Below are positions 15,219-64,000 of a stretch of DNA of 64,000 nt, in pieces. Under the pieces are notes generated by a model, which was not told where the DNA came from, searched no databases, and worked only from the letters and a program-made list of their open reading frames with translations. A program made the position numbers and the translations under genes. The DNA comes from Clostridiales bacterium (GTDB lineage: Bacteria > Bacillota > Clostridia > UBA1381): positions 1-64,000 of the forward strand of contig JAQXZB010000017.1 in NCBI GenBank assembly GCA_029226975.1. The letters run 5' to 3'. Position 1 is the stretch's first letter, and each line of letters starts with the position of its first letter.

Positions 15219-16292
15219 TTACAGATTATTCCTATATTGTATTTCTCCGTTTACCACACAAAGCTTAACATTATAATTATCATCATATACCGCAAAATCC
15301 GCGTCAAAGCCCGGCTCTAATCTGCCCTTTGACTTAAATCCCATAAGCTCTGCGGGAGTTTGGGATGCCATTTTAAACGCCTCCTCCTCAGGTATTCCGA
15401 ACTCAATCGCTTTTTTTACACAGTCCAAAAGGGTCGAGGTGCTTCCCGCTATTGCTCCGTCTTGGGTGCGCGCAACCGAATTTTTGACCGTAATGGTTTG
15501 TCCGCCGAATTCATATTCACCGTCCTCTAACCCTGTCGCCCGCATGGAATCGCTTATAAGCACCATCCTGCCGCTGCCAAATGTTCTGTATAAAAGCTTT
15601 ATTACGCTTTTATGTATATGCAGACCGTCGCATATCACCTGGACATATATATTATTATCGATTGCCGCGCCTATCGGTCCCGGATTTCGGTGATGAATGG
15701 GCGGCATTGCGTTAAAGGTATGCGTAAGACATTTTGCACCCAAGCCCATAGCCTTATCGGCGCACTCATAGTCCGCATCGGTGTGTCCTATGGATACCAC
15801 TTCAGAGCAGCCCTTTATAAACTCCATACTGCCCTCTATCTCCGGAGCTATCGTCACCATCTTTATATTTTCAAGAGTGTTAAACTCCTCCAAATCCGGT
15901 GTTTTTATATACTTTTCATTCTGCGCACCCTTGTGCTTGGGAGAAATGTAGGGTCCCTCCATGTGAAAGCCCAAAACCGCGGCTCCCTTTTGCGGCAGTT
16001 GCTTTATTGCCGTAACATTTCTTATCTTGTCCATATTCATGGTCATGGTAGTGGGCAGCCATGCCGTTACTCCATGACCTGCAATGTACTCGGACATTTC
16101 CTCAAGATGTGTTCCGTCCATTGTATCATAGCCTATGCAGCCATGGGTATGAATATCGATAAGTCCGGGATATACCTTGCAGCCCTTAAGGTCAAGTCCC
16201 TCACCCTCAAGCTGTCCCACAGCCGTTATTTTGCCGTTTTGAACCTCTATATCAACATTTTCCCCCATGAGAGAAGTATTTTTATAAATCAC
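15219..16292 (-). CDS. nagA: N-acetylglucosamine-6-phosphate deacetylase
   Basis: 357-residue amidohydrolase removing acetate from GlcNAc-6-phosphate. The metal-binding motif is GLIDIHTHGCIGYDTMDG, the FHMEGPYISPKHKGAQ glutamate region follows, and histidines stand in VSIGHTDADYE and CLTHTFNAMPPIHHR. The catalytic aspartate is in LISDSMRATG. The initiator is GTG at 16292, since a TGA lies three codons upstream in frame. AAGGAG stands 10 bases away. It is 14 bases downstream of the nagB-kinase fusion, so both form one operon. Its product, GlcN-6-phosphate, is the substrate of the NagB domain. Confidence 0.93.
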   Translation of the reverse strand: MIYKNTSLMGENVDIEVQNGKITAVGQLEGEGLDLKGCKVYPGLIDIHTHGCIGYDTMDGTHLEEMSEYIAGHGVTAWLPTTMTMNMDKIRNVTAIKQLPQKGAAVLGFHMEGPYISPKHKGAQNEKYIKTPDLEEFNTLENIKMVTIAPEIEGSMEFIKGCSEVVSIGHTDADYECADKAMGLGAKCLTHTFNAMPPIHHRNPGPIGAAIDNNIYVQVICDGLHIHKSVIKLLYRTFGSGRMVLISDSMRATGLEDGEYEFGGQTITVKNSVARTQDGAIAGSTSTLLDCVKKAIEFGIPEEEAFKMASQTPAELMGFKSKGRLEPGFDADFAVYDDNYNVKLCVVNGEIQYRNNL

Positions 16293-16306: not shown

Positions 16307-17905
16307 TTAGAGCATGGCAGCGCCCAGCGCGCCCGCGTCGCTTTGCAGCTCTGAAATTTCTATTCTTATATTTCCTCTAAGCTTTTCCTTTAACGGAGCA
16401 AGCAGCTTATCACCCTGCTTTGTAACTCCGCCGGCAAGAACAACCGCATCGGGTCCGAAAATATTTACAAGGCTTTCTATTCCCGAAGCAAGATAGAATA
16501 TGTACTTGTCAAACACAGCTTTTGCGGTTTCGCAGCCTTGATCAAGCGCTTCAAATATAAGCTTGCCGTCAAGTCTTGAGCTGTTCTTTTCCATTAAGCC
16601 GTAAAGTACGCTTTCCTTATTTTCCAAGGCAGCCGCCTGTGCATCCTTTATAAGCGCAGTTGCCGATGCGTACTGCTCCCAACAGCCGCAAAGACCGCAG
16701 GGGCATTTGCGTCCGCCCTCGGTTTGAATAATAATATGTCCTATCTCGCCCATATTATTGTTTCCGTGGCATATCTGTCTGTTCATAATAATTCCGCCGC
16801 CTACGCCGGTACCTAAAGAAACGAGAACTATATTATCACATTCCTTGGTCGTACCGAACTCAATCTCGCCCAAAGCCGCACAGTTGGCGTCATTGTCAAC
16901 AGTTACCGGAAGTCCCAAACGCTCCTTTAGAAGCTTTTCCAGGTTTGTGTTCTCAAAGGGCAGATTAACGCTTGTTACCATGCCGTTTTTAATTATTCCC
17001 GGTGTTCCCACGCCAACCTTCTTTATATTAAACTGCTCTTTAATGCTGTTTGCCTCTTTTGCAATTGCTTCTATAATACCCTCGCAGGTCCTTTCGGTCT
17101 TTACGCTGCTTTTGTATTTTACGCAGTCGCCCTCAACCACCGCAAACTTTATGTTCGTTCCGCCTATGTCTATGCCCAGCTTCGTACCCATATACGCGTC
17201 GCGGTCACAGATTAGAATAACATCGGGGTGCGTTTTAAGCATCGTAGCCGGAACGGAGGTGTTTATCGCGTCATTTAAAAGCTCTGCCACAACCGTACTC
17301 TTGCTTGCACCGCTTGCAAGAAGAATTATCTTCTTTGCGGATAAAATCGTGGAAATTCCCATTGTAAGCGCCTGCTTGGGCACCTCGTCATAGGAGTTGA
17401 AAAAGCGCGAATTGGCATTTATCGTGTTTTCGGTAAGCTTGGTCAGATGTGTATAGGAATTAAGGCTTGCGTCCGGCTCATTAAAGCCGATATGACCGTT
17501 TTGACCTATTCCCAGAATCTGCAAATCCACACCGCCGCTTTGCTTTATCATTTTTTCGTAATTTTCACACTCTGCCTTGGGATTGTCCGTTTCACCGTTG
17601 GGTATATGAGTGTTGTTGGGGTCTATGTTTATTTTAGAGAACAGATTTTCCCTCATAAAGGTGTAATAGCTCTGATCATTATCCTTTTTTATGGGATAAT
17701 ATTCGTCAAGATTAAAGCTTCTCACCTGCGAAAAGTCAATCTCTCCGTTTTTATACATCTCGGCAAGCTTATTATACATTCCCACCGGAGTTGAGCCTGT
17801 AGCAAGACCCAGCACACAGTCGGGCTTCAGCATAACCTGGGACGCAACAATCCCCGCCGCCTTTTCGGATAATTCATCGTAGTTTTCACATAAAATAATA
17901 CGCAT
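16307..17905 (-). CDS. Fusion of glucosamine-6-phosphate deaminase (NagB) and a ROK sugar kinase
   Basis: One 532-residue open frame. Residues 1 to about 237 are NagB: LGLATGSTPVGMYNKL binds phosphate, FNLDEYYPI carries the catalytic aspartate, and GQNGHIGFNEP carries the ring-opening histidine. From about 242 a complete ROK kinase follows almost without linker. It has LGIDIGGTNIKFAVVEG (ATP binding), DNDANCAALGE (catalytic aspartate), LGTGVGGGII, GEIGH, and the zinc cluster CPCGLCGCWEQYAS. NagB turns GlcN-6-phosphate into fructose-6-phosphate and ammonia. The kinase substrate is inferred to be GlcNAc, ManNAc or glucose. Because nagA is next, a GlcNAc kinase would complete three consecutive steps. 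The start at 17905 has GGGGAAG upstream; an ATG at 17923 lacks a good site. Confidence 0.92.
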   Translation of the reverse strand: MRIILCENYDELSEKAAGIVASQVMLKPDCVLGLATGSTPVGMYNKLAEMYKNGEIDFSQVRSFNLDEYYPIKKDNDQSYYTFMRENLFSKINIDPNNTHIPNGETDNPKAECENYEKMIKQSGGVDLQILGIGQNGHIGFNEPDASLNSYTHLTKLTENTINANSRFFNSYDEVPKQALTMGISTILSAKKIILLASGASKSTVVAELLNDAINTSVPATMLKTHPDVILICDRDAYMGTKLGIDIGGTNIKFAVVEGDCVKYKSSVKTERTCEGIIEAIAKEANSIKEQFNIKKVGVGTPGIIKNGMVTSVNLPFENTNLEKLLKERLGLPVTVDNDANCAALGEIEFGTTKECDNIVLVSLGTGVGGGIIMNRQICHGNNNMGEIGHIIIQTEGGRKCPCGLCGCWEQYASATALIKDAQAAALENKESVLYGLMEKNSSRLDGKLIFEALDQGCETAKAVFDKYIFYLASGIESLVNIFGPDAVVLAGGVTKQGDKLLAPLKEKLRGNIRIEISELQSDAGALGAAML

Positions 17906-17943
17906 TTTTTCTTCCCCTTCCATGTTCTTTAATATCTAAGCTT

Positions 17944-51237: not shown

Positions 51238-54200
51238 TTATTTGGAATATGCAAGGGGTACCATGTTATCATCCCATACATAAACTCTAAGCGTTTTTCC
51301 CTCTGCCTGCGCCGCCGCAATTTCCGTATCGCCCGGATTTGCGGTTATCTTTTCTCTTTGTACCTTATAAAGAGTATTATCCTCGTTATAGACAGCGGCC
51401 GTAACCGTTGCTTCAACGGGAGTGCCGGTTTCATTTTTTACCGTAATTTTCCCGTTTTCACATAAAACCGACAGCGGCATTTCGCCCTTCACGGTCACTC
51501 TGAAATCCTTGTATGCCGTAAATCCGTCATCGCTGTTTACTATTTTGGTGGTCATTATAACATCGCAGTCCGCTGCCGCTCCGTAAAATGTTCCGTCTGC
51601 TGCTATAACCTCCGGTCTGCTGCTGCTCCATGAAATCTCTGCTCCCTCCTCGATTGATGAGGGCAGTATGAGATTTTCTCCCACGCTTTGCGGATTTTTT
51701 GTCAGCTTATCCATTGTAAGCTCCTCAACGGTATTGTCAACGGCCTGAACGGGACTTTTTTCAATCTCGCAAAGTCTGAGCCTTTCAAGCTTTACAAAAT
51801 CCCCCGGAGTCATATTCTTGTTTGCCGCAAAGCGTATTCCCGACAAATATGCACCCGCCTGGGTCGTTCCCCAGTTGGTCATGACAAAGGTATCCGCCGA
51901 AGCCCCCGAGTTTAATGTGCCGGTGGTTTTTGAAGCCTGGGTCGACCCGTCCTTAAATACTTGGAATGTGGATGTATCGGAATCGAACACAACGCACATA
52001 TCCACAAAGGAAGCGGTATTGCTCCACATGGGCGAAGCGCTTGCCGTAGTATTCAGCTTGTTATTATAAACGCTTATGGTTCCCGATGCGTTTTGGAATC
52101 GTCCGACACTTGTGCCGGGATTTTTGTTTCTCGCGCCGATAAAGTCTATCCACGAGCTGCTGCTTGTATGCGGCAGAGCAATGCGCATTTCAACCGAGTA
52201 TTTGCCCTTAAAATCAGTTCTTCTCACCGTCACGCGTTCGTCACCGCCGTAATTTTCCTCAATCTGCTCAAAATTCTTCAATGCCGAATATACCGTATTA
52301 CCGTCACCGACTCCCGAGGGAACCGTAACCGCCGAGGACTTGTTTATAACAAGTGCGCCGCCTTTAACCGCAAAAGCCCCGTAATCCGCATTCTCGTTCA
52401 CTCTCATGGGATCGTCCGTTTCGCTCCACCCTTGCTCCTGAAGCTCATTCTGGGCCATATCCGCCCCGGTATAATCCTCCTCGTCAATAGGTGTTCCAAA
52501 TCCCTTCCATTCATTTGAGGTTTCAAGCAGCACAAACGCTCCGCTGCTTTCCCTGCCGTTTTCCATTGCCGTAACCTTATAGGTGGTCTGCTTCTTTGCC
52601 TCCTCCTCGCTTACGTCAAATTCAAAGACAGTATTCTCTGCCGTACCCATAAGCTCATAATCGGCCGCGTTTTCCACTGCCCTGTACACTCTGTACTCCT
52701 CGGCGCTGTCCGTTCCCGTCCATTTTACGGCAGCATGAGTTGAAGTGCTGTATTTTACGCTTACATCGGACGGAGCGCTTATACTTGTGCGCGCCGGTAT
52801 GTCGGATATAACATACTCCTCACCCTTTTGGGTGTTAAAGGTTATCTTGTCCGTACCCTGTGCCGTAAATGACACCCCATTCCCCTTTGAGTCCGTTACC
52901 TTTGCAAGAGCAATATTGTCAAAGCCCACGCTTACGCTTTCGGTATCTGCGCGGGAACGGATTTTCGCTTCGGTTACGGTGCTGTTTTTCCAGTCAATGT
53001 CCACCTCAAAATTTCCCCTTGCAACCAATCCGTCCACAGAGCCGCTTGTCCATACCGGAGAGAGTGCCGGCAAAAGCTCTATATATCCCGCATGGCTTTG
53101 CATCAGGGTTTCGATAACACCCGCAACAGCACCCAAATTTCCGTCTATCTGGAAGGTAGCCGTAGGATGCGTGTTCCACAAATTCGGATTTGTCGAGCCT
53201 GTTAAAATCTTCTTGTAGGCTTCATAGGACTGTACTCCGTCCTTTGCTCTTGCCCATAAATTCATTCTGTGCGCCAAAGCCCAGCCCGGAAGCGAGCTGC
53301 TCATTCCTCTCTTTTGCAGAGTAACCTTTGCTCCGTCAAGCCATGCCGGAGTATTATCGTTTATCGATGTGCCCGGATAAAGCCCCTTAAGCTGTGAAAC
53401 ATGCCTGTGTCCCGCCTCGCCGGAGGTTCCGTCCGCATACTGATTATAATGTCCCTCGTCGCGGTATTCCTTTACCTGTCCGTCAAGACCTATAAGCACC
53501 GGGTCAAGCTTATCTATCTGCATATCGATTACGCTCTCAAGCTCCGTATCGGGATTTTCCAAAAGAGCGCCCAGTATCTCGGTTTCCTTGTAAGCTTCGT
53601 AGGTCATCTGTTGGTCAAAGGCACAGCCCGGCGATATTCTCTTGTTTGCATTCTCAGGCGATGCCGAATGTTCTATAAGATATTTTCCGTCATGCTCCAC
53701 AACGGCTCTTGACAAAAATTTTGCCACTCCGCCCACAGCCTTGTAATCATGCTCAAGCTTGCCCGGGTCTCTTGTAAAATCATACTGGTCATAAAAAAGC
53801 ATTGCCGTAAGCGCCGAGGTACCCGGTCCCGAATGGGTCGAGCCGGTGGGCGGTCCGTCCAGTGCGTAAGGGTATGCTCCTGTGCCAACGCCCCAGCCGT
53901 TTTCGTGGTCTGTGACATTATCCTTGTCCGCGCCCCATACCTTTAGGTAATTGTCCGCGCCCGTTTCGGCAGCGTACATATACGCCTTGTTGTAATCCTC
54001 ATAGGACTCAAACATTTCCGCCAGATTTGCCGTAAATACCGGCCAGTAATTCATCTGCACATTTATGTTGTGCCAGTAGCCCGCCGTCCATGGCGCGCTG
54101 TCATATGCGTTCCATGCGCCCTGCAAATGTGCCGGAAGCGCGCCTTTTCGAGATGAGGCTATGAGCAAATATCTTCCGTACTGGAAATACAATTCCTCCA

Positions 54201-55254
54201 TATACCGGCGGTTTACGGATGCGTCCTTGTATTTTTCAAGCATAACGTCCGTTGTCATATCCGGGTCATACACTCCGCCCAAATCCAGTTCCACGCGGTC
54301 AAAATATGTTTTGTAATCGGCAATATGCTCCGCCTTTACCGCGTCATAGCCCTTTTTAACCGCCGCGTCAAGCCTTGCGCTCACCTTATCATGGGGAGCC
54401 GCCTTGCCCGCAAGCTTTTCCTTTGCCGGTTTGGTAAACACCTCCGGCTCTAACTCATAATTGGTATCGAGTGCAGCCATAACAACCACGCTGTCCGCTC
54501 CCTCTACGGTAAGCGTACTCTCGTCCCCCGTTACCGTTCCCCCGTCATTTATAAGCTTTATCTGTGTTTCATACTGTATCTGATAATACTCCATAAGTCC
54601 GCTCAGGGTAATGCGCTGTGCTGCCGCATCTGCCTCAACCGTTCCGGTCTTGCCCTGACCGTCCCCCTCAGTCATGCCGTAGTCCTTAATATATGGATTT
54701 TCGGGTCTTAGAGTAAAGGAAATCTTCCCCGGCTCTGACGCGCTTATTTTTATTGCCAGAACATTGTCCGGGTAGCTTGCTATGTACTCCCTGTGATAGG
54801 TTACTCCCTCATACTCGTAATCCGCCGCCGCAACGGCAGTCCTCAAATCCAGACTTCTTCGGTAATTTGACGAAACGGCAAAATCCTGATTAAAATCCAT
54901 GTAAATATCCGCAAAGCTGTTCAAGCCGCCGCGGCTGTGCAAAAGCGCACCTGTCGGGTCGCTTCTGTAGGGATTTGCCAAGGTCTTGTCCGCAATCTGT
55001 ACCCGATCGGTATCAAGCCTTGCCCATATGCTTGCGCCCATATATCCGTTGCCTATGGGCAGGCTCTGCTCATCCCAGCCCTTTCTGTCCTCAACGCTGT
55101 TGTCAAGTATGGGCGCGGTATTGTCGCAAGGCTCGTCATACCACAGAATAAGCGGCTTCTTCTCGCTCTCCTGTGCCAAAGCAATGCCCGCCCCCGGAAC
55201 AGCTCCCAGTACCATACAAGCCGTCAGCGCGGAAGAAACAATTCTTTTAATCAT
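51238..55254 (-). CDS. Secreted GH95 alpha-L-fucosidase, multimodular
   Basis: About 1338 residues from the ATG at 55254, where AAAGGA is spaced 8 bases. An ATG at 55263 is in frame but abuts its site. Signal peptide about 1-27. The GH95 catalytic part (about 35-790) carries SLPIGNGYMGASIWA and the asparagine pair WHNINVQMNYWP (about 390-400). It also has GHRHVSQLKGLYPG and THPTATFQIDGN (aspartate near 702), matching catalytic residues of AfcA-type 1,2-alpha-L-fucosidases. Then come a fibronectin-like domain (825-900), an unnamed beta module (925-1160), an Ig-like domain (1175-1255) and a C-terminal domain ending VYVWDDNMVPLAYSK. No SLH. Alpha-L-galactosidase activity is possible. Confidence 0.92.
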   Translation of the reverse strand: MIKRIVSSALTACMVLGAVPGAGIALAQESEKKPLILWYDEPCDNTAPILDNSVEDRKGWDEQSLPIGNGYMGASIWARLDTDRVQIADKTLANPYRSDPTGALLHSRGGLNSFADIYMDFNQDFAVSSNYRRSLDLRTAVAAADYEYEGVTYHREYIASYPDNVLAIKISASEPGKISFTLRPENPYIKDYGMTEGDGQGKTGTVEADAAAQRITLSGLMEYYQIQYETQIKLINDGGTVTGDESTLTVEGADSVVVMAALDTNYELEPEVFTKPAKEKLAGKAAPHDKVSARLDAAVKKGYDAVKAEHIADYKTYFDRVELDLGGVYDPDMTTDVMLEKYKDASVNRRYMEELYFQYGRYLLIASSRKGALPAHLQGAWNAYDSAPWTAGYWHNINVQMNYWPVFTANLAEMFESYEDYNKAYMYAAETGADNYLKVWGADKDNVTDHENGWGVGTGAYPYALDGPPTGSTHSGPGTSALTAMLFYDQYDFTRDPGKLEHDYKAVGGVAKFLSRAVVEHDGKYLIEHSASPENANKRISPGCAFDQQMTYEAYKETEILGALLENPDTELESVIDMQIDKLDPVLIGLDGQVKEYRDEGHYNQYADGTSGEAGHRHVSQLKGLYPGTSINDNTPAWLDGAKVTLQKRGMSSSLPGWALAHRMNLWARAKDGVQSYEAYKKILTGSTNPNLWNTHPTATFQIDGNLGAVAGVIETLMQSHAGYIELLPALSPVWTSGSVDGLVARGNFEVDIDWKNSTVTEAKIRSRADTESVSVGFDNIALAKVTDSKGNGVSFTAQGTDKITFNTQKGEEYVISDIPARTSISAPSDVSVKYSTSTHAAVKWTGTDSAEEYRVYRAVENAADYELMGTAENTVFEFDVSEEEAKKQTTYKVTAMENGRESSGAFVLLETSNEWKGFGTPIDEEDYTGADMAQNELQEQGWSETDDPMRVNENADYGAFAVKGGALVINKSSAVTVPSGVGDGNTVYSALKNFEQIEENYGGDERVTVRRTDFKGKYSVEMRIALPHTSSSSWIDFIGARNKNPGTSVGRFQNASGTISVYNNKLNTTASASPMWSNTASFVDMCVVFDSDTSTFQVFKDGSTQASKTTGTLNSGASADTFVMTNWGTTQAGAYLSGIRFAANKNMTPGDFVKLERLRLCEIEKSPVQAVDNTVEELTMDKLTKNPQSVGENLILPSSIEEGAEISWSSSRPEVIAADGTFYGAAADCDVIMTTKIVNSDDGFTAYKDFRVTVKGEMPLSVLCENGKITVKNETGTPVEATVTAAVYNEDNTLYKVQREKITANPGDTEIAAAQAEGKTLRVYVWDDNMVPLAYSK

Positions 55255-55288
55255 TTTCCTCATCCTTTCCGTTTTATTCTATATTATT

Positions 55289-55349
55289 ATTTTACTATTG
55301 TTTCACAGCTTTTTACATAGGCTGTTTACGCAGAAAATAGGCTACATTT
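55289..55349 (-). promoter_or_regulatory. Tandem-repeat promoter of the GH95 gene
   Basis: Plus-strand view: ATAGGCTGTTTAC (55317-55329) and ATAGGCTACATTT (55337-55349), 20 bases apart. Minus-strand TAAAAT (55294-55289) begins 23 bases from the inner repeat edge. Confidence 0.7.
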
Positions 55350-55350
55350 A

Positions 55351-55372
55351 AGGGGATGCTCTCGCATCCCCT
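55351..55372 (-). terminator. Hairpin after the metallophosphoesterase gene
   Basis: Nine-base perfect stem AGGGGATGC (55351-55359) with GCATCCCCT (55364-55372) and a 4-base loop. It lies 8 bases past the stop codon and directly borders the GH95 promoter repeats. The T-run is weak. Confidence 0.65.
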
Positions 55373-55380
55373 CATAAGCA

Positions 55381-58300
55381 CTATTTGGTTATCACTGCAT
55401 ACGGAATCATATTTTTATCCCAAACCATAACCTTGATTGTTTTTGCGCCCTCATTCGCCGTAAAGTCGGTACTGATTGTATCCGATGTTTTATCCGCGAT
55501 TGTGCCGTCTGCCTTAACAAGTGACAGCAGATTGCTGTTTTCATCGTACTGAGCAACGTAGAGGGACATTTCCTTTACTTCGCCGCTTCTGTTCTCTATC
55601 TGTGCCTGTGCGGTTGCAGCTTCTGCGCTTACCGAAGCCTTTACATATTTTAGCTCATCGCCGTTTTCACCGCTTATTTCAATATTGTTGAGCCAGAATA
55701 TATTGGTAACGGCACTGTTTGTTATGTCAAAGCTTACAGCGTCAAGAGACTTTACATCGGTATTGATAAACTCCGCCGAGTCCACAAGCTTGGTCTTTTC
55801 AGAATATTCCGTACCCTGATATGCGCCGCTTTCCGTTTTTCTCGGTACGAGATATGCCGAATATGTACCTGTGGTCATGTCAAGCTCAATTCTTGCATAC
55901 AGCACCATTGCCGCAACCTTTGCATTATCGTCCGCACCCTTGTATTTTAAGGAGCTTCCGATTTTGCTGCCGTTTGCGTCAGTGAAGTACGCCTCACAGG
56001 TGTTTTTGTAATCTCCCGTTGACTGAGCAAATTTAATAGCCGCAATATCCTTTTCATCGCCCGATGCATTTCTGCCCTTAAGGGTCATTGTCATGCTGCC
56101 GCTGTCTTTATAAAGCACCTCAAACTCCGATTCGTAAACATACTTTCCGCCCTCAAAGCGTGTCTGTGACGGATTGTTTGTTATATCCTTGGCAAAATCG
56201 ATTCTGCCCATGTGCTGATTTCCCTTATCGGTTTTCATGGAAAAACGCAGTGCCGGCACATAGCAGGTATTATCGTCATTTTCCTTTACCACACTCCATA
56301 TAGCGGAGCCGTTTGCCGTAATTCCGTAATTTTCCGTAGTGATTGCCTTTAGATACTCTCCCTCAACCTTGTCGGCATACATGGAGTATGCAACGCTCTT
56401 TTTGGAGTTTACCTTATTTATATATGCCTCAATATCCGCATCCGTCAAGTCCTCGTCAGCCATAAGCATACGTCCCTCGTTAAGCAGCGCACCGTTCTCA
56501 ATCGTACCGCCGCAAAGAAGCTCGTTTAACTCGTCAGCCTTTGTAAGCGACGCTCTTTGTACATACTTGTTATCAAGCTCCGCAACCTCCTTGGCTGTAA
56601 ATGCGCCGTTGTAAAGATTCGCAAATACTATCTTTCCCGAAAATGCGTTCTGAGCCGATGTTTGATCCTCAAATCCATTATCCGTCGGTACAGGATTGTA
56701 ATCACCGCCTATGACCATTCCGAAATTGGGATCGTCCTGGGCGTAAAATTCCATTGCTCCGCTTGCCGCATGAGTATCAGCCAACACTCCGTTATTGTAT
56801 ACCTTGACGTTCTCGCCGTCATAGGTAACGGTTAAGTGATAGTATTTTCCGGCTTCAAGCGTAAGCGTGCTTCCGGGATAGGGATCTTTTACCCATGCTC
56901 CGTTATGACGTACATAAGCCTCAACGGTACCGTCCGCCGTTGTTTCAATATCAAAGCCGGAGCCTTGTGCCGCACCTATAACATTGTCCGAGCCGTTAAA
57001 CTTTGACGGGCTGAACATTACATCGATTGTATATCCGTCCGCTCCCTGCATAAGCTCTTTTCTTCCTGCGTCCATCATAACCTTGAAGAAATTCGGCGAG
57101 CCGGTCTGTCCCTCTTCTCTTTCAAAGGACGCTTCATACATTTTAAGCTCACTGTTATATGAAATCGGTGTGCTTCCGTAAACTCTGGGCTGCAAATCGT
57201 AAAAACGTGCATATTCCGAGGTATCCTGTATTGTGCTGTCGTTAAAGGATACCTTTGCCAGTGCCGCCGGCTTAACCTCTCTTGCCGCAGTGGTAAATAC
57301 CTCTGTTTCAATGGTGTTTGACGACTCCTGATAGAAGCTGTCATAGGCTGTTATAACCGCCTTGTATTGCGTCTGCGGTTCAAGCCCCGATACGTTCCAA
57401 TAGTTCTCGGCCGGTGCCTCATCTCCCTGCCAGTAATATGATGAAACCGTATAGCTCTTATCCGTATTTTGAGTTTCCTGATTTATAATATCAACTCTGT
57501 AGTGACCTACGTCCGTATCGTCATCCTTTGCCTGGGTAAAGGTCACCTTGCAGCCGCTCTCGCTTACTCCCGAAACCGCTGCCGTCGCATCTTGGGTAAA
57601 ATACGGAGCGGTTGTATCCCTTGTATCCGTATATTGCCAATTTGCCTTATCGTTTACATTTATTACCCACGGCTCCTTAAACTCTCTGTTTCTGTAAAAG
57701 TCCATACGATGAACGGTAACCACATTGTCCTCGCCCACCTCTATATAATAGCCGGAGCTTTCATTTTCATTGCTGCCGAATCTCTTGGGCTGGAAGGACT
57801 CGTCCCAGCAGTCCTCAATTTCCATGTTGTTTACCGCACCGGTATTAAGTGAGGTAAATTCACCCTGGTGTATGGAACGCTCATTTGCCATATCCCAGTG
57901 TGAGTGACCCGAGAAGGTTATGGCGTTTTGGCAGTTCTTTAAGCTGTCATAAAGCTCGTTTGTTCCCCAATAATTTGAGGTATAGGGGCTTCCATTTCTC
58001 ATGCCGGTTACGGGGAACGAACCGTAAACCGTATCCTTTACATTGGGGTGCATAGCCACAAATATCGGCTTGCCCTCCGCAGCCGCCTCCTCCGAAGCAG
58101 CCTGCACCTCTTGGTCAAACCAGCTTATGGTTTCGGGCGAGTGTATATACTCATATGAGCTTGACTCATCATTTGCTCTTTGAGTATCCTGGCTCACCGT
58201 TATAAACTTGTAGCCGTATATGTCATATACATTATTGGGCGAGGTAAGCGTTTCGTCATAGTCCGAAAGATATGTAACGAAATTGCTTTCCTTATTATCC

Positions 58301-59607
58301 TTGGCGTCATGATTTCCTCTTACAAACATAACCTTTGTATGGCTGCCCTTGGGAATTACCTCCTCAAGGTCCTTTACAAATGCCTGATACTCCGCCGCAT
58401 TGCTGTTATGGGTTATATCACCGGGAATCATCAGCACATCAAGCTGTTCAATGCCGCCTGCCTTTTCAATTACCTGCTCTGCTGCCGCCTTGAACTTTTT
58501 GCCTGCATAGCCGTATGCGTCAAGGCTGCTGTCCTGGGAAGCTCTGCCGTATTGCAAATCCGAAAGCACTCCGATTTTTAAGGCTACACCCTCCTCATGT
58601 CCCTGGGTGGGTACCGGCGTGGGTATGGGAGTTGCTTCTATGACCTCCGGAGTGTATTCGCTTACAGAAACATTTTTAATCCATACCGCATTTCCGTAAT
58701 AGAAGTGCATAATGTCATAATTGAAGCCGATAAACTCCTGTGCGTTCTTATTTATCATAGAAGCGTTTTCAACCAAAAGATTTTCCTCGGAAGGCTCTGT
58801 GGCCGCATATTCGCCGTCCTCGTCCTTTCTGGGAACAAGCCATACGGAATAAAGCTTGTTTACAAAATCCAGCTTTACTCTTATAAACAGCATCTCTCCC
58901 GCATTGTCATAACTGTAGTTTGACGTACTCTTTATGGTTGCCTTGTTTCCGATTGCTTTTCCCGCCGCGTCAAGAGCGTATGCATATGCCGCATTCGCCT
59001 TGCCGTTTACCGGCTTTGCCTGAGGAATAAAACGAACCGTTCCCAATACGGCGCTGTTTCCGTCCGCATCCTTTCCGTTTAAATCCAGATCAATATATGT
59101 AGTATCATCTTTAATCTGAACCGCAAACTCGGACTCATAAACATATCCGCTGCCGTTCATTGCTGCCGGTTTATTTACCGTATCCGCGGTAAAATCCCAA
59201 GTCATAGCCGTACACGATGTGTCAGCCTTAAGGGTTCTTGAAGCAAATCTTAAGCCCTCAACACCTATATTTTTTATAGAACTTATTCTCTGTACGCTCC
59301 ATATGCCCTTAGTTCCGGTATCAGCCGTTATGCCGTATCTGTTGTAGTCTTCCGCGGCAAGACCGGTATTTACGGGGTAAATGGTTTCTCCGTCCGCCTT
59401 TGTCATGTTGTCCGAAGAATAGGCTACCACCACATTCTGTTCTGCCTCATACTCCGGCTGTGCCTCCGCCATAGGCTGCGGCATTATCGCCTCATAAACC
59501 GTTTCTTCCTTTGTAATTTCCGTATCCGTTCCGTTTACGGCCATTACCGCCGGGGCAAAAGCTCCGAGCTGTGCCACTGCTGTAAGCAGCGCCAAAAATT
59601 TTTTCAT
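55381..59607 (-). CDS. Giant secreted metallophosphoesterase with LamG and unnamed beta modules
   Basis: 1408 residues with a signal peptide (about 1-23). Order: unnamed beta module A (about 75-325); calcineurin-like phosphoesterase (about 345-600) with all metal motifs IGVLSDLQYG, MIPGDITHNSN, VRGNHDAKD and SGHSHWDMAN; a fibronectin-like domain (about 675-770); a LamG/concanavalin-like domain (about 835-1015; YYHLTVTYDGENVKVYNNG); a second module A (about 1089-1312); and a C-terminal domain ending VMVWDKNMIPYAVITK, like that of the GH95 protein. It cleaves phosphomono- or diesters outside the cell; the target is unknown. It has its own tandem-repeat promoter. No SLH or sortase motif. Confidence 0.85.
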   Translation of the reverse strand: MKKFLALLTAVAQLGAFAPAVMAVNGTDTEITKEETVYEAIMPQPMAEAQPEYEAEQNVVVAYSSDNMTKADGETIYPVNTGLAAEDYNRYGITADTGTKGIWSVQRISSIKNIGVEGLRFASRTLKADTSCTAMTWDFTADTVNKPAAMNGSGYVYESEFAVQIKDDTTYIDLDLNGKDADGNSAVLGTVRFIPQAKPVNGKANAAYAYALDAAGKAIGNKATIKSTSNYSYDNAGEMLFIRVKLDFVNKLYSVWLVPRKDEDGEYAATEPSEENLLVENASMINKNAQEFIGFNYDIMHFYYGNAVWIKNVSVSEYTPEVIEATPIPTPVPTQGHEEGVALKIGVLSDLQYGRASQDSSLDAYGYAGKKFKAAAEQVIEKAGGIEQLDVLMIPGDITHNSNAAEYQAFVKDLEEVIPKGSHTKVMFVRGNHDAKDNKESNFVTYLSDYDETLTSPNNVYDIYGYKFITVSQDTQRANDESSSYEYIHSPETISWFDQEVQAASEEAAAEGKPIFVAMHPNVKDTVYGSFPVTGMRNGSPYTSNYWGTNELYDSLKNCQNAITFSGHSHWDMANERSIHQGEFTSLNTGAVNNMEIEDCWDESFQPKRFGSNENESSGYYIEVGEDNVVTVHRMDFYRNREFKEPWVINVNDKANWQYTDTRDTTAPYFTQDATAAVSGVSESGCKVTFTQAKDDDTDVGHYRVDIINQETQNTDKSYTVSSYYWQGDEAPAENYWNVSGLEPQTQYKAVITAYDSFYQESSNTIETEVFTTAAREVKPAALAKVSFNDSTIQDTSEYARFYDLQPRVYGSTPISYNSELKMYEASFEREEGQTGSPNFFKVMMDAGRKELMQGADGYTIDVMFSPSKFNGSDNVIGAAQGSGFDIETTADGTVEAYVRHNGAWVKDPYPGSTLTLEAGKYYHLTVTYDGENVKVYNNGVLADTHAASGAMEFYAQDDPNFGMVIGGDYNPVPTDNGFEDQTSAQNAFSGKIVFANLYNGAFTAKEVAELDNKYVQRASLTKADELNELLCGGTIENGALLNEGRMLMADEDLTDADIEAYINKVNSKKSVAYSMYADKVEGEYLKAITTENYGITANGSAIWSVVKENDDNTCYVPALRFSMKTDKGNQHMGRIDFAKDITNNPSQTRFEGGKYVYESEFEVLYKDSGSMTMTLKGRNASGDEKDIAAIKFAQSTGDYKNTCEAYFTDANGSKIGSSLKYKGADDNAKVAAMVLYARIELDMTTGTYSAYLVPRKTESGAYQGTEYSEKTKLVDSAEFINTDVKSLDAVSFDITNSAVTNIFWLNNIEISGENGDELKYVKASVSAEAATAQAQIENRSGEVKEMSLYVAQYDENSNLLSLVKADGTIADKTSDTISTDFTANEGAKTIKVMVWDKNMIPYAVITK

Positions 59608-59656
59608 ATTAGTTCACCTTTCCTTTCGTTGATTGTATTTTCGTTCCTGTAATTTG

Positions 59657-59716
59657 ATTATATATATAGTCTGCAAAAAAATAAATAAGCTATTTTTTCT
59701 TTTATTGGTTAATTTT
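59657..59716 (-). promoter_or_regulatory. Tandem-repeat promoter of the metallophosphoesterase gene
   Basis: Plus-strand view: ATAAGCTATTTTT (59685-59697) and ATTGGTTAATTTT (59704-59716), 19 bases apart. Minus-strand TATAAT (59662-59657) begins 23 bases from the inner repeat edge. It lies back to back with the lyase promoter. Confidence 0.65.
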
Positions 59717-59758
59717 ATACTAAAGTGCAAGTTTTGCCCATTTATAGGTCAAAATTGC

Positions 59759-59819
59759 AAATACAGCATATTTATGAAAAATATAGCCTATTGATTTTAC
59801 TTCCCCTCGACTTTAAACT
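59759..59819 (+). promoter_or_regulatory. Tandem-repeat promoter of the PL8/GH29/GH112 operon
   Basis: AAATACAGCATAT (59759-59771) and AAATATAGCCTAT (59779-59791), exactly 20 bases apart and 11 of 13 bases identical. TAAACT (59814-59819) begins 23 bases from the inner repeat edge. Confidence 0.7.
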
Positions 59820-59860
59820 TATATATAGGATAATTTTTTACAAGAAAGGCAGGTACATAT

Positions 59861-62350
59861 ATGAAGCTGAAAAGATTTATATCGATTTTCCTCGCCCTTG
59901 CGGCGCTGTCTCCGGCGGCTTATGCCAAGGATGCCGTTTATATGGAGGAAAACAGCACTACCGTAATAGATACCGGAAAAACCCATGAGCTGTCCGAGCC
60001 TGTAAAGAACATAGACGGAACGGTTTATGTTCCCGTAAGAAGCGTGCTTGAGCTTTTGGGCTACAATGTATATTGGGAGGACGGAAAGCTTGTTATAGGG
60101 AAACAGGACGAAGCTGTTCTTTCCGATATGATAAATGACGGGTATCTTGCCGCAAAGCTTGACGGTGCGGTATCGGGAGATCTCTCGGATATAAGGAAAA
60201 TAAAGGACGCTTTAAAGGAAAGTGTTTACAATAAGGACGCCGACCCGACAGAGGCGCTTTCTCTTTGGAAGGAGAACGGCAGCTTTGAGGGCATAGAGTA
60301 TTACAATCCCGACCGCATGGTCTGGACCGCAAACAATCATGTTAAATATCTGCTTACCATGGTTCAGGCTGCATACTCACCCGAAAATAAGTATTACGGC
60401 GACAAGGCTCTTAAAGAGAAGATTGCAAAATCTTTGGATTTTTGGGCGCACGGCGGCAGAGTTGAATGTGATAACTGGTGGCAGCAGGAGATCGGTGTTC
60501 CTCAAACGGTTGTAAATATTCTTATTCTAAACCCCGATGAAATTACCGACGATGTAAGAGCCGTTTTAAATGCCGAAGCGGCAAAGGGCTCCATATTTAA
60601 CGAAACCACAACCGACCGAATGAAAGAACGTCCCGTTGCCAACACCGGTGCAAATTTAGCGGACAAGCTTCTTACAAGCTTTAAGATTGATATTGCAACG
60701 GAAAACGAAGCGGAGCTTTGGGACGCGATACATCTTATGGAAAATGAGTTTCGCGTATTTGAAAAGGTGCGTACCGACGAGTACGGCGAGGACTCCGACG
60801 GTATAAAGGCGGATTATTCCTTCCATCAGCATGTTGACCAGATACAGGGCGGTAGCTATGGCGAGGTTATGATGAATGACTTTTCGGCGATTATTTCCTA
60901 TTTAAAAGGCACAAAATACAAAATTGCCGACAATGCCTTAAATGAGTATGCCAACTGGCTTTTGGACGGTCAGCAGTGGATATTCAGAAACAATTACCGA
61001 GAGCTTACCACAGCAGGCAGGCACATCACCCGCCCCAACGGCATAATGGGCTTTAGAGCATCCATGCAAAAGGCAGTGGACGCCCTTGAGGGATATACGC
61101 AGATAAAGCGTTATGACGAGCTTATGGCAATGAAACAAAACCGCCTCGGCGACAGTGATACCTTTAACGGAAACCGCCATTTCTGGCTTTCGGATTATAT
61201 GTCCCATAACCGCACAGGGTATCATGTGGGCTTAAAGCTTTCGTCAAACCGCACCAAAAACGGCGAGGTTGTAAACAATGAAAATCTTTTGGGCTACTAC
61301 CTCTCCGACGGCGTTACCACCCTTATGCAGGACGGTGACGAGTATTACAACATAATGCCCCTTATTGACTGGAACAAGCTGCCGGGTACCACAACTCCCC
61401 AGGGCGCCCTAAAAAATCTTAACGACTGGGCGGACTGGAACGGCGAGCATTTGTGGAACTGGAAGGGCAGCTGCCACTTCGTGGGCGGCGTTTCGGACGG
61501 AATGTACGGCGCGGCGGTAATGGATTATTCCCTTGACGGTCTTGCGGCGCATAAGGCATGGTTTATGCTTGATGACCGAATGATAGCTTTGGGCAATCAA
61601 ATAAACGCATATTCGCCCTATGATATTTACACAAGCATAAATCAGTGCGTAAAGGACGGGGATATTAAAATCGTTTCTTCATCATCTGTCCGCGACGCAA
61701 AAGCCTTAGAGAGCGTAAAGAAGGGCGAAGCGGTTTTGCATAACGGCATAGGCTATATCTTAAAAAATGACGCAAAGCTGTCCTTTGAGGATAAAACCGC
61801 AAAATATGAGCTTATAAACTTAGGCTCCGCATACAAGGACATAGAAGAAAGCAATACCATATTCTCTTTAGGCATTGACCATGGCAAAAAGCCCGAAAAT
61901 GCTTCATATGAATACACCGTTCTCTTTAATGCGGACGAAGCAAAGCTAAAGACGGAGCTTTCGGCTTCCAAAATAAGCGTTATAAGAAACGATGACGCTA
62001 TGCAGGCGGTTTATGACTATAACAATAAAATTGCCGAAGCAATCGTTTGGAAGGCCGGTGATTTGGAGCTTCCCTCCGGTCTTAGTGTAAATATAAACAA
62101 GAAATGCGCGCTTATAATAAAGGAGCTTTCGGACGGTACGCTTGAAATAACCGCTTCAAATCCCGACAATACACCCAAGGATTTGCAGCTTGTGGTAAAC
62201 AGGGTATTGCCGGCAGACGGTGTAAGCGTTGTAAAGGAAAGCGACACCTCCACAAGGATTAAATTCCGTTTAAACGAGGGCGTTTACAGCGGAAGCAGCA
62301 GCACCTATAATTCAAAAACCGGCTTTAGCGAGTTTTTGACCAACGAATAA
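59861..62350 (+). CDS. Secreted polysaccharide lyase family 8-like protein
   Basis: 829 residues with a signal peptide (about 1-22). Residues about 24-80 resemble the small copper-amine-oxidase N-terminal stalk domain (DGTVYVPVRSVLELLGYNVY). The PL8 alpha/alpha toroid follows, with CDNWWQQEIGVPQTVV (about 204) and the likely catalytic residues: asparagine in TGANLADKL (about 262), histidine in DYSFHQH (about 320), tyrosine in GGSYGEVM (about 332) and arginine in AGRHITR (about 388). A beta super-sandwich comes next (about 430-690). PL8 enzymes split hyaluronan, chondroitin, xanthan or related uronic-acid polymers by beta-elimination; which one is not decided. It is first of a plus-strand operon. 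Confidence 0.85.
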   Translation: MKLKRFISIFLALAALSPAAYAKDAVYMEENSTTVIDTGKTHELSEPVKNIDGTVYVPVRSVLELLGYNVYWEDGKLVIGKQDEAVLSDMINDGYLAAKLDGAVSGDLSDIRKIKDALKESVYNKDADPTEALSLWKENGSFEGIEYYNPDRMVWTANNHVKYLLTMVQAAYSPENKYYGDKALKEKIAKSLDFWAHGGRVECDNWWQQEIGVPQTVVNILILNPDEITDDVRAVLNAEAAKGSIFNETTTDRMKERPVANTGANLADKLLTSFKIDIATENEAELWDAIHLMENEFRVFEKVRTDEYGEDSDGIKADYSFHQHVDQIQGGSYGEVMMNDFSAIISYLKGTKYKIADNALNEYANWLLDGQQWIFRNNYRELTTAGRHITRPNGIMGFRASMQKAVDALEGYTQIKRYDELMAMKQNRLGDSDTFNGNRHFWLSDYMSHNRTGYHVGLKLSSNRTKNGEVVNNENLLGYYLSDGVTTLMQDGDEYYNIMPLIDWNKLPGTTTPQGALKNLNDWADWNGEHLWNWKGSCHFVGGVSDGMYGAAVMDYSLDGLAAHKAWFMLDDRMIALGNQINAYSPYDIYTSINQCVKDGDIKIVSSSSVRDAKALESVKKGEAVLHNGIGYILKNDAKLSFEDKTAKYELINLGSAYKDIEESNTIFSLGIDHGKKPENASYEYTVLFNADEAKLKTELSASKISVIRNDDAMQAVYDYNNKIAEAIVWKAGDLELPSGLSVNINKKCALIIKELSDGTLEITASNPDNTPKDLQLVVNRVLPADGVSVVKESDTSTRIKFRLNEGVYSGSSSTYNSKTGFSEFLTNE

Positions 62351-62359
62351 GGATATCCG

Positions 62360-62435
62360 CGCGGGAAAACCGCACCCCCACATTTTAATAGACACTGCAC
62401 ACTGCATAACCTCTGCAGTACGCGGTTTTCCTGCG
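62360..62435 (+). repeat. Long-range inverted repeat between lyase and GH29 genes
   Basis: CGCGGGAAAACCGC (62360-62373) pairs with GCGGTTTTCCTGCG (62422-62435), 14 bases with one G-U. The 48-base spacer holds a smaller nested pair ACTGCA/TGCAGT. It could be an attenuator, a processing site or the remnant of a small repeat element. Confidence 0.55.
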
Positions 62436-62459
62436 GTTTATCAATAAGGAGAGCAATAA

Positions 62460-63620
62460 ATGGAAACAATAAAGCCAACCAAGCGTCAGCTTGAATTTAT
62501 GGACTGGGAATTTGGAGTGTTCTTCCATTTCGGAATACGCACCTATTACCAAAACCATTCCGACTGGGACGGGAAGCCCATGGATATTTCGGTTTTCAAC
62601 CCCCAAAGGCTTGACTGTGACCAATGGCTTCAAGCCGCAAAAGCCGCCGGAGCAAGATATGCGGTATTTACCGCAAAGCACCATGACGGCTTTGCAAACC
62701 GGAATTCGGCATATACCGATTATTCGATAAAAAATACACCTTACAAAAACGGCGGCGGTGACATTGTAAAAAGCTTTACCGATGCTTGCCGAAAATTCGG
62801 GCTTAAGGTTGGGATATACTACTCGCCCGCCCAGTTCGGCTCACGTCAAAGCGAAAATTACGATGATTATTTTATAAACCAAATCTCGGAGCTTTTAACC
62901 GGTTACGGCAAAATAGATTATCTGTGGTTTGACGGCTGTGGCAGCGAGGGACATAATTATGACACGAAACGGATTATAAAGGAAATCCGCACCTTACAGC
63001 CGAATATTTTAATATTCAATATGTGGGACCCCGACACCCGCCGGGTGGGCAACGAGGACGGATATGCGCCGGAATGTAATCTAAACGTTACCGACAGCCT
63101 TGATTTTTCGGTTATGACCGATAAAAAGAAAAATCTTAAAAACCGGCGTTTTCTGCCCGCAGAATGTGACTGCCGCATCCGCGATAACTGGTTTTATCAC
63201 GAAGATGATAATTTAAAAAGCCTTGATAAGCTTATGGATATATATGAAAATTCCGTAGGTCACGGAGCAAACCTGCTACTTAACCTGTCCCCCGCTCCCG
63301 ACGGACTTATCCCCGATGAGGACGTAAAAAGAATGGAGGGGCTGGGAGAAAGAATACATAAGGAGTTTTGCTCAGCGGATTTTGAATTTTCATCAACCGA
63401 ATACGAATGCAATGCAAAAATATCCCGCGCCGTAATATGCGAGGACTTAACAGAGGGTCAGCGGGTTAAAGAATTTGCATTATACGCCGACGGAAAGCTG
63501 ATTTTTGGGGGCTCAACCATAGGGCATAAGCGCATATGCCGCTTTGGGCCCGTATATGCAAAGAAAATTGAGATTAAAACCGATGTATGCGCTAATCTTA
63601 ATACATCGCTTTATAAATAA
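62460..63620 (+). CDS. GH29 alpha-L-fucosidase, cytoplasmic
   Basis: 386 residues without signal peptide. The N-terminus has FGVFFHFGIRTYY and the active-site histidines of FTAKHHDGFANRNSAYTDY, which are hallmarks of GH29. The nucleophile is in IDYLWFDGCGSEG (aspartate near 157). The following beta domain is short, giving a compact member. It releases fucose from imported oligosaccharides, with retention of configuration. GGAG precedes the ATG. It lies 109 bases after the lyase gene and 18 bases before the GH112 gene. The linkage preference is not readable. Confidence 0.92.
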   Translation: METIKPTKRQLEFMDWEFGVFFHFGIRTYYQNHSDWDGKPMDISVFNPQRLDCDQWLQAAKAAGARYAVFTAKHHDGFANRNSAYTDYSIKNTPYKNGGGDIVKSFTDACRKFGLKVGIYYSPAQFGSRQSENYDDYFINQISELLTGYGKIDYLWFDGCGSEGHNYDTKRIIKEIRTLQPNILIFNMWDPDTRRVGNEDGYAPECNLNVTDSLDFSVMTDKKKNLKNRRFLPAECDCRIRDNWFYHEDDNLKSLDKLMDIYENSVGHGANLLLNLSPAPDGLIPDEDVKRMEGLGERIHKEFCSADFEFSSTEYECNAKISRAVICEDLTEGQRVKEFALYADGKLIFGGSTIGHKRICRFGPVYAKKIEIKTDVCANLNTSLYK

Positions 63621-63638
63621 ACAGAAAGGACGGATTTA

Positions 63639-64000
63639 ATGATTAAAGGAAGATTTACCCTTCCCGGCGAAACGGGAATGGAAAAGGAAATTAAAGAGCT
63701 TGCTAAGCTTTGGGGCGTTGACGCAATACGCGACAGCGACGGAACAAAGCTCTCACAGGATCTTATCGATATGGGACTTACGGTGTATTCCGTTTTGTGC
63801 CTTGTGCGTGACGATAATGAATGGGTAAAGAAAAACCCCGATTGTCTGCAGCAGATTTATCTGCTTACCGAGGAGCATACGGCATACGGTACAGAGCTTG
63901 CAATAGACATAATGTCCACCTTCTTCGATCAGCAGTTTAAGCCCAATACCGATGATGATATAAAAAAATACTGGCAGGTAATGGACAGGACAGCCGGCGA
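63639..64000 (+). CDS. GH112 phosphorylase (galacto-/lacto-N-biose or galactosyl-rhamnose), 3' end cut by window edge
   Basis: About 120 residues are open to the window end from an ATG with AAAGGA 8 bases upstream. They read IKGRFTLPGETGM, WGVDAIRDSDGTKL, VYSVLCLVRDDNEW and KKYWQVMDRTAG. This closely follows the N-terminus of GH112 phosphorylases, which split beta-galactosides with phosphate to galactose-1-phosphate. Known members act on lacto-N-biose/galacto-N-biose or on galactosyl-1,4-rhamnose; the part seen here does not settle which. It is third in the PL8-GH29 operon, cytoplasmic. Confidence 0.87.
   Translation, partial: MIKGRFTLPGETGMEKEIKELAKLWGVDAIRDSDGTKLSQDLIDMGLTVYSVLCLVRDDNEWVKKNPDCLQQIYLLTEEHTAYGTELAIDIMSTFFDQQFKPNTDDDIKKYWQVMDRTAG

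Follow-up and report, generated by a model that had tools for sequence, protein, structure and literature searches.

Fusion of a glucosamine-6-phosphate deaminase to a ROK sugar kinase in a family of Clostridia and its probable role in N-acetylglucosamine utilization

Analysis of a 64,000-nucleotide stretch of contig JAQXZB010000017.1 from a gut-type Clostridiales bacterium (assembly GCA_029226975.1; the whole stretch is called the window here) revealed a gene in which two amino-sugar enzymes that are generally separate proteins form one chain: a complete glucosamine-6-phosphate deaminase (NagB) passes, without a linker, into an equally complete kinase of the ROK family (Table 1). The longest open reading frame listed at this site extends from 16307 to 17923 on the minus strand (538 amino acids), and residues of the fusion are numbered on this frame. 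The ATG at 17905 is preceded by GGAAGGGGAAG, a good ribosome-binding site, giving a protein of 532 residues, and the alignments of most relatives to the fusion start at this ATG. In profile searches, TIGR00502 (NagB) matched residues 7 to 248 with 301.3 bits (cut-off, 236.9) and PF00480 (ROK) matched residues 249 to 538 with 211.6 bits (cut-off, 22.9). These matches bear out the original prediction of one 532-residue frame that holds a full NagB and a full ROK kinase with almost no linker. The nagA gene was correctly expected as the next gene of the operon: its product scores above the model cut-off, its start lies 14 bases past the stop of the fusion, and an AAGGAG sits at the fusion stop codon.

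Table 1. Features of the window discussed in the text
Feature	Position	Strand	Description
NagB-ROK fusion gene	16307..17905	-	532 aa from ATG at 17905
NagB (glucosamine-6-phosphate deaminase) domain	17192..17905	-	Residues 7-244; TIGR00502 match; closest solved structure 2bkv
ROK sugar-kinase domain	16310..17185	-	Residues 247-538; PF00480 match
Linker-free junction	17168..17212	-	Residues 238-252, ICDRDAYMGTKLGID
nagA (N-acetylglucosamine-6-phosphate deacetylase)	15219..16292	-	TIGR00221, 297 bits (cut-off, 225.65)
GH112 phosphorylase, start of gene	63639..64000	+	PF09508; likely source of free cytoplasmic GlcNAc

A single structure model of the fusion was generated (mean pLDDT, 74; pTM, 0.54). 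Its kinase half was covered by 3 of 10 rows only and is poor; the model was left unused for domain orientation. A Foldseek search with this model assigned the first half to NagB 2bkv (TM score of 0.94 by target length) and the second half to ROK kinases. The closest solved structure for the ROK half is the glucokinase 3vgk from S. griseus. At the junction, the model, which is of moderate quality, predicts the last NagB strand at residues 235 to 240, a helix of five residues at 241 to 245, and the first ROK strand at 247 to 253.

Searching for the fusion in related genomes revealed that many members of the window's family share it and that it is no oddity of the source genome. A full-length fusion in one frame was found in 26 of the 70 family genomes, representing 10 of 17 genera. 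The order comprises 95 genomes in this comparison, and none of its 25 genomes from outside the family contained a full-length fusion at E values up to 1e-60. Of 391 Clostridia genomes sampled, 12 contained the fusion, namely, 7 from the family and 5 from outside the order: G103 (with two copies), G205, G290, and the divergent G358 and G440 (46% identity). The same domain order thus occurs in relatives, as had been suspected. Two of nine genomes from the order of G205 carry the fusion, and a further one was detected among the named assemblies in an uncultured Ruminococcus (L033); locus L034 is apparently the same contig as G065:C59, with identical length (66,303) and matches, and was counted once. 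In a draw of 398 genomes from the phylum, the source genome alone had the fusion at E values up to 1e-95. No fusion was found in viral contigs, and the one plasmid record that spans most of the query, from a Parabacteroides plasmid, has NagB-like and ROK genes that are adjacent but separate.

The conservation of the fusion was analyzed in an alignment of 33 sequences, from which the second contig copy of G059 and a contig-cut copy of G047 were omitted. All 33 sequences were free of gaps over the 43 columns surrounding the junction. This bears directly on whether a sequencing or assembly error erased a stop codon between two genes. Relatives with unfused versions do exist (L029 and L030), which would suit such an error, but an uninterrupted junction of the same kind is seen throughout the alignment, and the open frame recurs in the family as described above. 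The artefact reading was rejected on account of these uninterrupted frames; a missed stop or frameshift at 17180 to 17200, named beforehand as a possible flaw, has almost no chance of being the explanation. Matches at four loci (L008, L010, L013, and L021) were flagged with a stop, yet their open frames are intact, with 528 to 540 codons from the true start.

The mean pairwise identity among the 33 fusions was 65% for the NagB half and 51% for the ROK half. In NagB, D73, E74, N142, H144, and K208 were kept in all 33 sequences and E149 and R173 in 31; we take these seven residues to be catalytic. The ROK half has the motifs N344-D345, E393-x-G-H396, and a zinc motif, C407-x-C-G-x2-G-C414, and N344, D345, E393, H396, C407, C409, and C414 are invariant in all fusions, in line with the earlier statement that the motifs of both enzymes are intact. 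Calculation of dN/dS for 11 chosen pairs gave values of 0.02 to 0.14 in both halves (one kinase value was saturated), which indicates that purifying selection acts on NagB and ROK alike in the pairs compared. The divergent fusions of G358 and G440 (L058 and L059) have N in place of E149 and A in place of R173; the dN/dS of their NagB half is 0.028, a value of purifying selection, and these changes perhaps reflect an altered reaction or a structural role.

Phylogenetic trees were calculated for both halves. In the kinase tree (47 of 49 rows; L046, which is distant, and L050, a duplicate of the L032 gene, were omitted), the fused rows cluster with a few single rows, and glucokinase-like ROK proteins fall outside. 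The label "fused" requires 6 changes on this tree and 12 on the NagB tree (66 rows, many weak forks); each tree includes a row labeled "single" (L044_kx and L043_b, respectively) that appears to be a second fused copy of G047 truncated by contig ends. In G034 and G036 (L029 and L030), nagB and the ROK gene are two genes with an ATGA overlap, and both are sisters of the fused L008 in the NagB and kinase trees (support values of 100/98 and 100/99). Because of this position beside a fused gene in both trees, the pair is most simply read as a fused gene that was split again. The constant junction favors a single fusion event with later losses, splits, and transfers over repeated gain; a single clean origin was considered and is unproved, given the numbers of label changes. 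In G059, a further locus (L042, 1883 to 2887) encodes a ROK domain that belongs to the fused clade but has lost its NagB half except for a few junction-like residues.

Inspection of the gene neighborhoods revealed nagA within the examined flanks of 25 of the 33 fusion loci. It adjoins the fusion in 22, as the next downstream gene in 19 (with a gap of 717 bases in L033) and directly upstream in 3 (L026 to L028). In L092 it lies on the same strand with two genes between, and in L023 and L025 it is near but not adjacent. No nagA was seen in the examined flanks of the other eight loci (L006, L014, L015, L017, L021, L024, L058, and L059), among which the flanks of L006 and L014 end at contig ends within about 360 bases. 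A homologue of N-acetylhexosamine 1-kinase (NahK), identified by its match to PDB entry 4ocu (7e-91), was found near the fusion in 20 of 33 loci and a sugar nucleotidyltransferase in 9. Since flank lengths differ among loci, these neighbor counts are lower bounds. AraC-type regulator genes, L-fucose isomerase, or a GH109-like protein are also encoded near some of the fusions.

The source genome has two GH112 lacto-N-biose phosphorylases, one of which starts in the window (Table 1), shortly after genes for a GH95 fucosidase, a PL8 lyase, and a GH29 fucosidase; these form a host-glycan group at 51238 to 64000. Within this region, positions 55381 to 59607 encode a protein of 1,408 residues with a signal-like start and, by eye, a metallophosphoesterase-like middle part. 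GH112 phosphorolysis yields free, unphosphorylated GlcNAc in the cytoplasm. This GlcNAc is out of reach of the phosphorylation that accompanies PTS uptake, so that a kinase is needed.

Considering these neighbors, we regard the fusion as probably a bifunctional GlcNAc 6-kinase/GlcN-6-P deaminase for GlcNAc that is released from host glycans within the cell. This free intracellular GlcNAc would come chiefly from GH112 enzymes, which would phosphorolyse lacto-N-biose and related disaccharides of host glycans. The C-terminal ROK domain would convert GlcNAc and ATP to GlcNAc-6-P, the separate NagA encoded by the next gene would form GlcN-6-P, and the N-terminal NagB domain would release fructose-6-P and ammonia. 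NahK, a separate 1-kinase, and the nucleotidyltransferase would belong to another, UDP-sugar-forming branch. Most simply, the fusion would ensure co-expression of the enzymes for the first and last steps in a one-to-one ratio; a putative channelling through NagA is possible.

The sequence of the ROK half does not by itself fix the sugar. The curated GlcNAc kinase model (NagK, PRK13310) gave 102.3 bits, below its cut-off of 380, so that the ROK half is not filed in the NagK subfamily, though it may act alike. Its best curated kinase match, the ROK glucokinase model TIGR00744, also stayed below the cut-off (213.6 bits versus 260.35), as did every other curated kinase model listed. The GlcNAc route of the original prediction is well supported by the gene neighbors, and its GlcNAc-kinase identity is not confirmed by the curated model. 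An assignment from active-site residues was attempted and discarded, because the contacts are largely common to ROK kinases (PMC10031466). GlcNAc as the substrate is instead suggested by the neighbors and by a second kind of fusion. In G088, a genome of another family (f3) of the same order, NagA and a ROK kinase share one frame of 694 residues (L082, 4537 to 6618), the start codon of the kinase being gone; in G085, a relative with 81% identity, nagA and the ROK gene are separate, and both a TGA and a ribosome-binding site are present. The ROK domain of G088, the only genome in which a NagA-ROK fusion was seen, belongs to a clade neighboring the NagB-fused kinases. Kinases of one kind are thus joined to NagB in one family and, once, to NagA in another, and a related ROK kinase fused to NagA or encoded beside nagA points to GlcNAc as the substrate. 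In G050, from the genus of the window, nagB, an in-frame TAG, a glucokinase-like ROK gene of another clade, and nagA follow one another (L050, 1 to 2413); here, the same neighborhood is assembled with a different kinase.

Two other substrate assignments were weighed. If the ROK half formed GlcN-6-P from free glucosamine, NagB would use the product at once; the fusion would then join adjacent steps, which is the usual logic of fused enzymes, and the fusion would by itself cover the whole path from glucosamine to fructose-6-P, a reading that suits the eight loci where nagA was not seen. We consider this assignment quite unlikely in view of nagA near the fusion at the remaining 25 loci and of the link of a close ROK kinase to NagA in G088 and G085. 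Alternatively, the ROK half could be a hexokinase or ManNAc kinase, acting on glucose, ManNAc, or a broad set of sugars and connecting the use of amino sugars with general sugar phosphorylation or with the degradation of sialic acid. The top curated model and the closest solved structure are both glucokinases, and some ROK kinases have a broad substrate range, but the constant link with NagB and the frequent link with nagA and NahK make this function rather unlikely. Furthermore, the source genome encodes a separate glucokinase-like ROK protein (L002), which is 37 to 40% identical to the fused ROK domain, falls outside the fused clade, and can serve as a glucokinase.

Some observations count against the preferred role as a GlcNAc 6-kinase. 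NahK of the same operons could itself consume GlcNAc. In the source genome, NahK and nucleotidyltransferase homologues lie side by side on another contig, outside the nagA operon, and 8 of 33 loci lack a visible nagA. The NagA-ROK fusion, moreover, was seen in a single genome. The genome also encodes one glucose-family PTS EIICBA (559.5 bits with the glucose model and 453.7 with the GlcNAc model, both below cut-off), which might bring in GlcNAc-6-P directly. Apart from these points, contig C111 of this genome carries a second, divergent pair of nagB-like and nagA-like genes with an AraC-type gene upstream (L003, 1309 to 3363), and the NagB-like protein scores 89 bits, far under the nagB cut-off.

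Similar gene sets are known from bifidobacteria. In Bifidobacterium longum subsp. infantis, nagK (ROK), nagB, nagA, and lnpA/lnpB are co-regulated (PMC9599254). The nag/lnp clusters of Bifidobacterium serve lacto-N-biose and GlcNAc use and share with the loci analyzed above a ROK NagK, NagB, NagA, a GH112-type phosphorylase, N-acetylhexosamine 1-kinase, and uridylyltransferase (PMC9599254). In those clusters, nagK and nagB are unfused and accompanied by a ROK repressor, whereas here kinase and deaminase form one chain, with an AraC-type gene near some loci. According to the authors of that article, no prokaryotic enzyme has been described that converts GlcNAc-1-P to GlcNAc-6-P, and therefore the 1-kinase should not replace a 6-kinase (PMC9599254).

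The NagB half has the same short form as the monomeric NagB of Bacillus subtilis (2bkv), with matching D73, N142, H144, and E149, and differs from this enzyme and from Escherichia coli NagB in being fused at its C terminus. The allosteric residues of E. coli NagB, which we take to be S151, R158, K160, and T161, would align with A152, H159, T161, and K162 of the fusion. They are not kept, so that activation of the E. coli type by GlcNAc-6-P is not expected, and allostery of this type by the kinase's own product was ruled out on this presumption.

UDP-GlcNAc 2-epimerase/ManNAc kinase (GNE) has the domain order of an amino-sugar enzyme followed by a ROK kinase. Like the fusion, GNE unites an amino-sugar enzyme and a ROK kinase in one chain (PMC2742894); it differs in its N-terminal enzyme and in its opposite, biosynthetic direction. 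Comparison by motif with NagK from Plesiomonas shigelloides revealed that D6, T10, N104, D105, E154, and H157 correspond to D252, T256, N344, D345, E393, and H396 here (PMC10031466). P. shigelloides NagK is a stand-alone dimer, unlike the fused domain, and its small domain rotates by 23 degrees upon GlcNAc binding (PMC10031466). NagB is attached, without a linker, to the small domain of ROK, and the deaminase could thus sense GlcNAc binding. We tentatively propose, as a minor possibility, that GlcNAc binding felt by NagB would mechanically replace GlcNAc-6-P allostery of the E. coli type and that NagA would be held between the two active sites in a three-enzyme complex. The gap-free junction, constant in all aligned fusions, would fit such coupling and such a complex.

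Neither the enzymes nor the pathway is new, and the concept of joining a ROK kinase to an amino-sugar enzyme has precedent; a NagB-ROK fusion was not named in the literature found among open-licence PMC papers. Within one family of Clostridia, NagB commonly takes this fused form, and best-hit annotation may label the fusion only as a deaminase or only as a ROK protein. For these bacteria, the fusion also points to the enzyme that serves as GlcNAc 6-kinase. The split, ATGA-overlapping pair of G034 and G036, the NagA-ROK fusion of G088, and the unfused neighbors offer natural comparisons, which would allow testing whether fusing steps one and three of the pathway alters flux.
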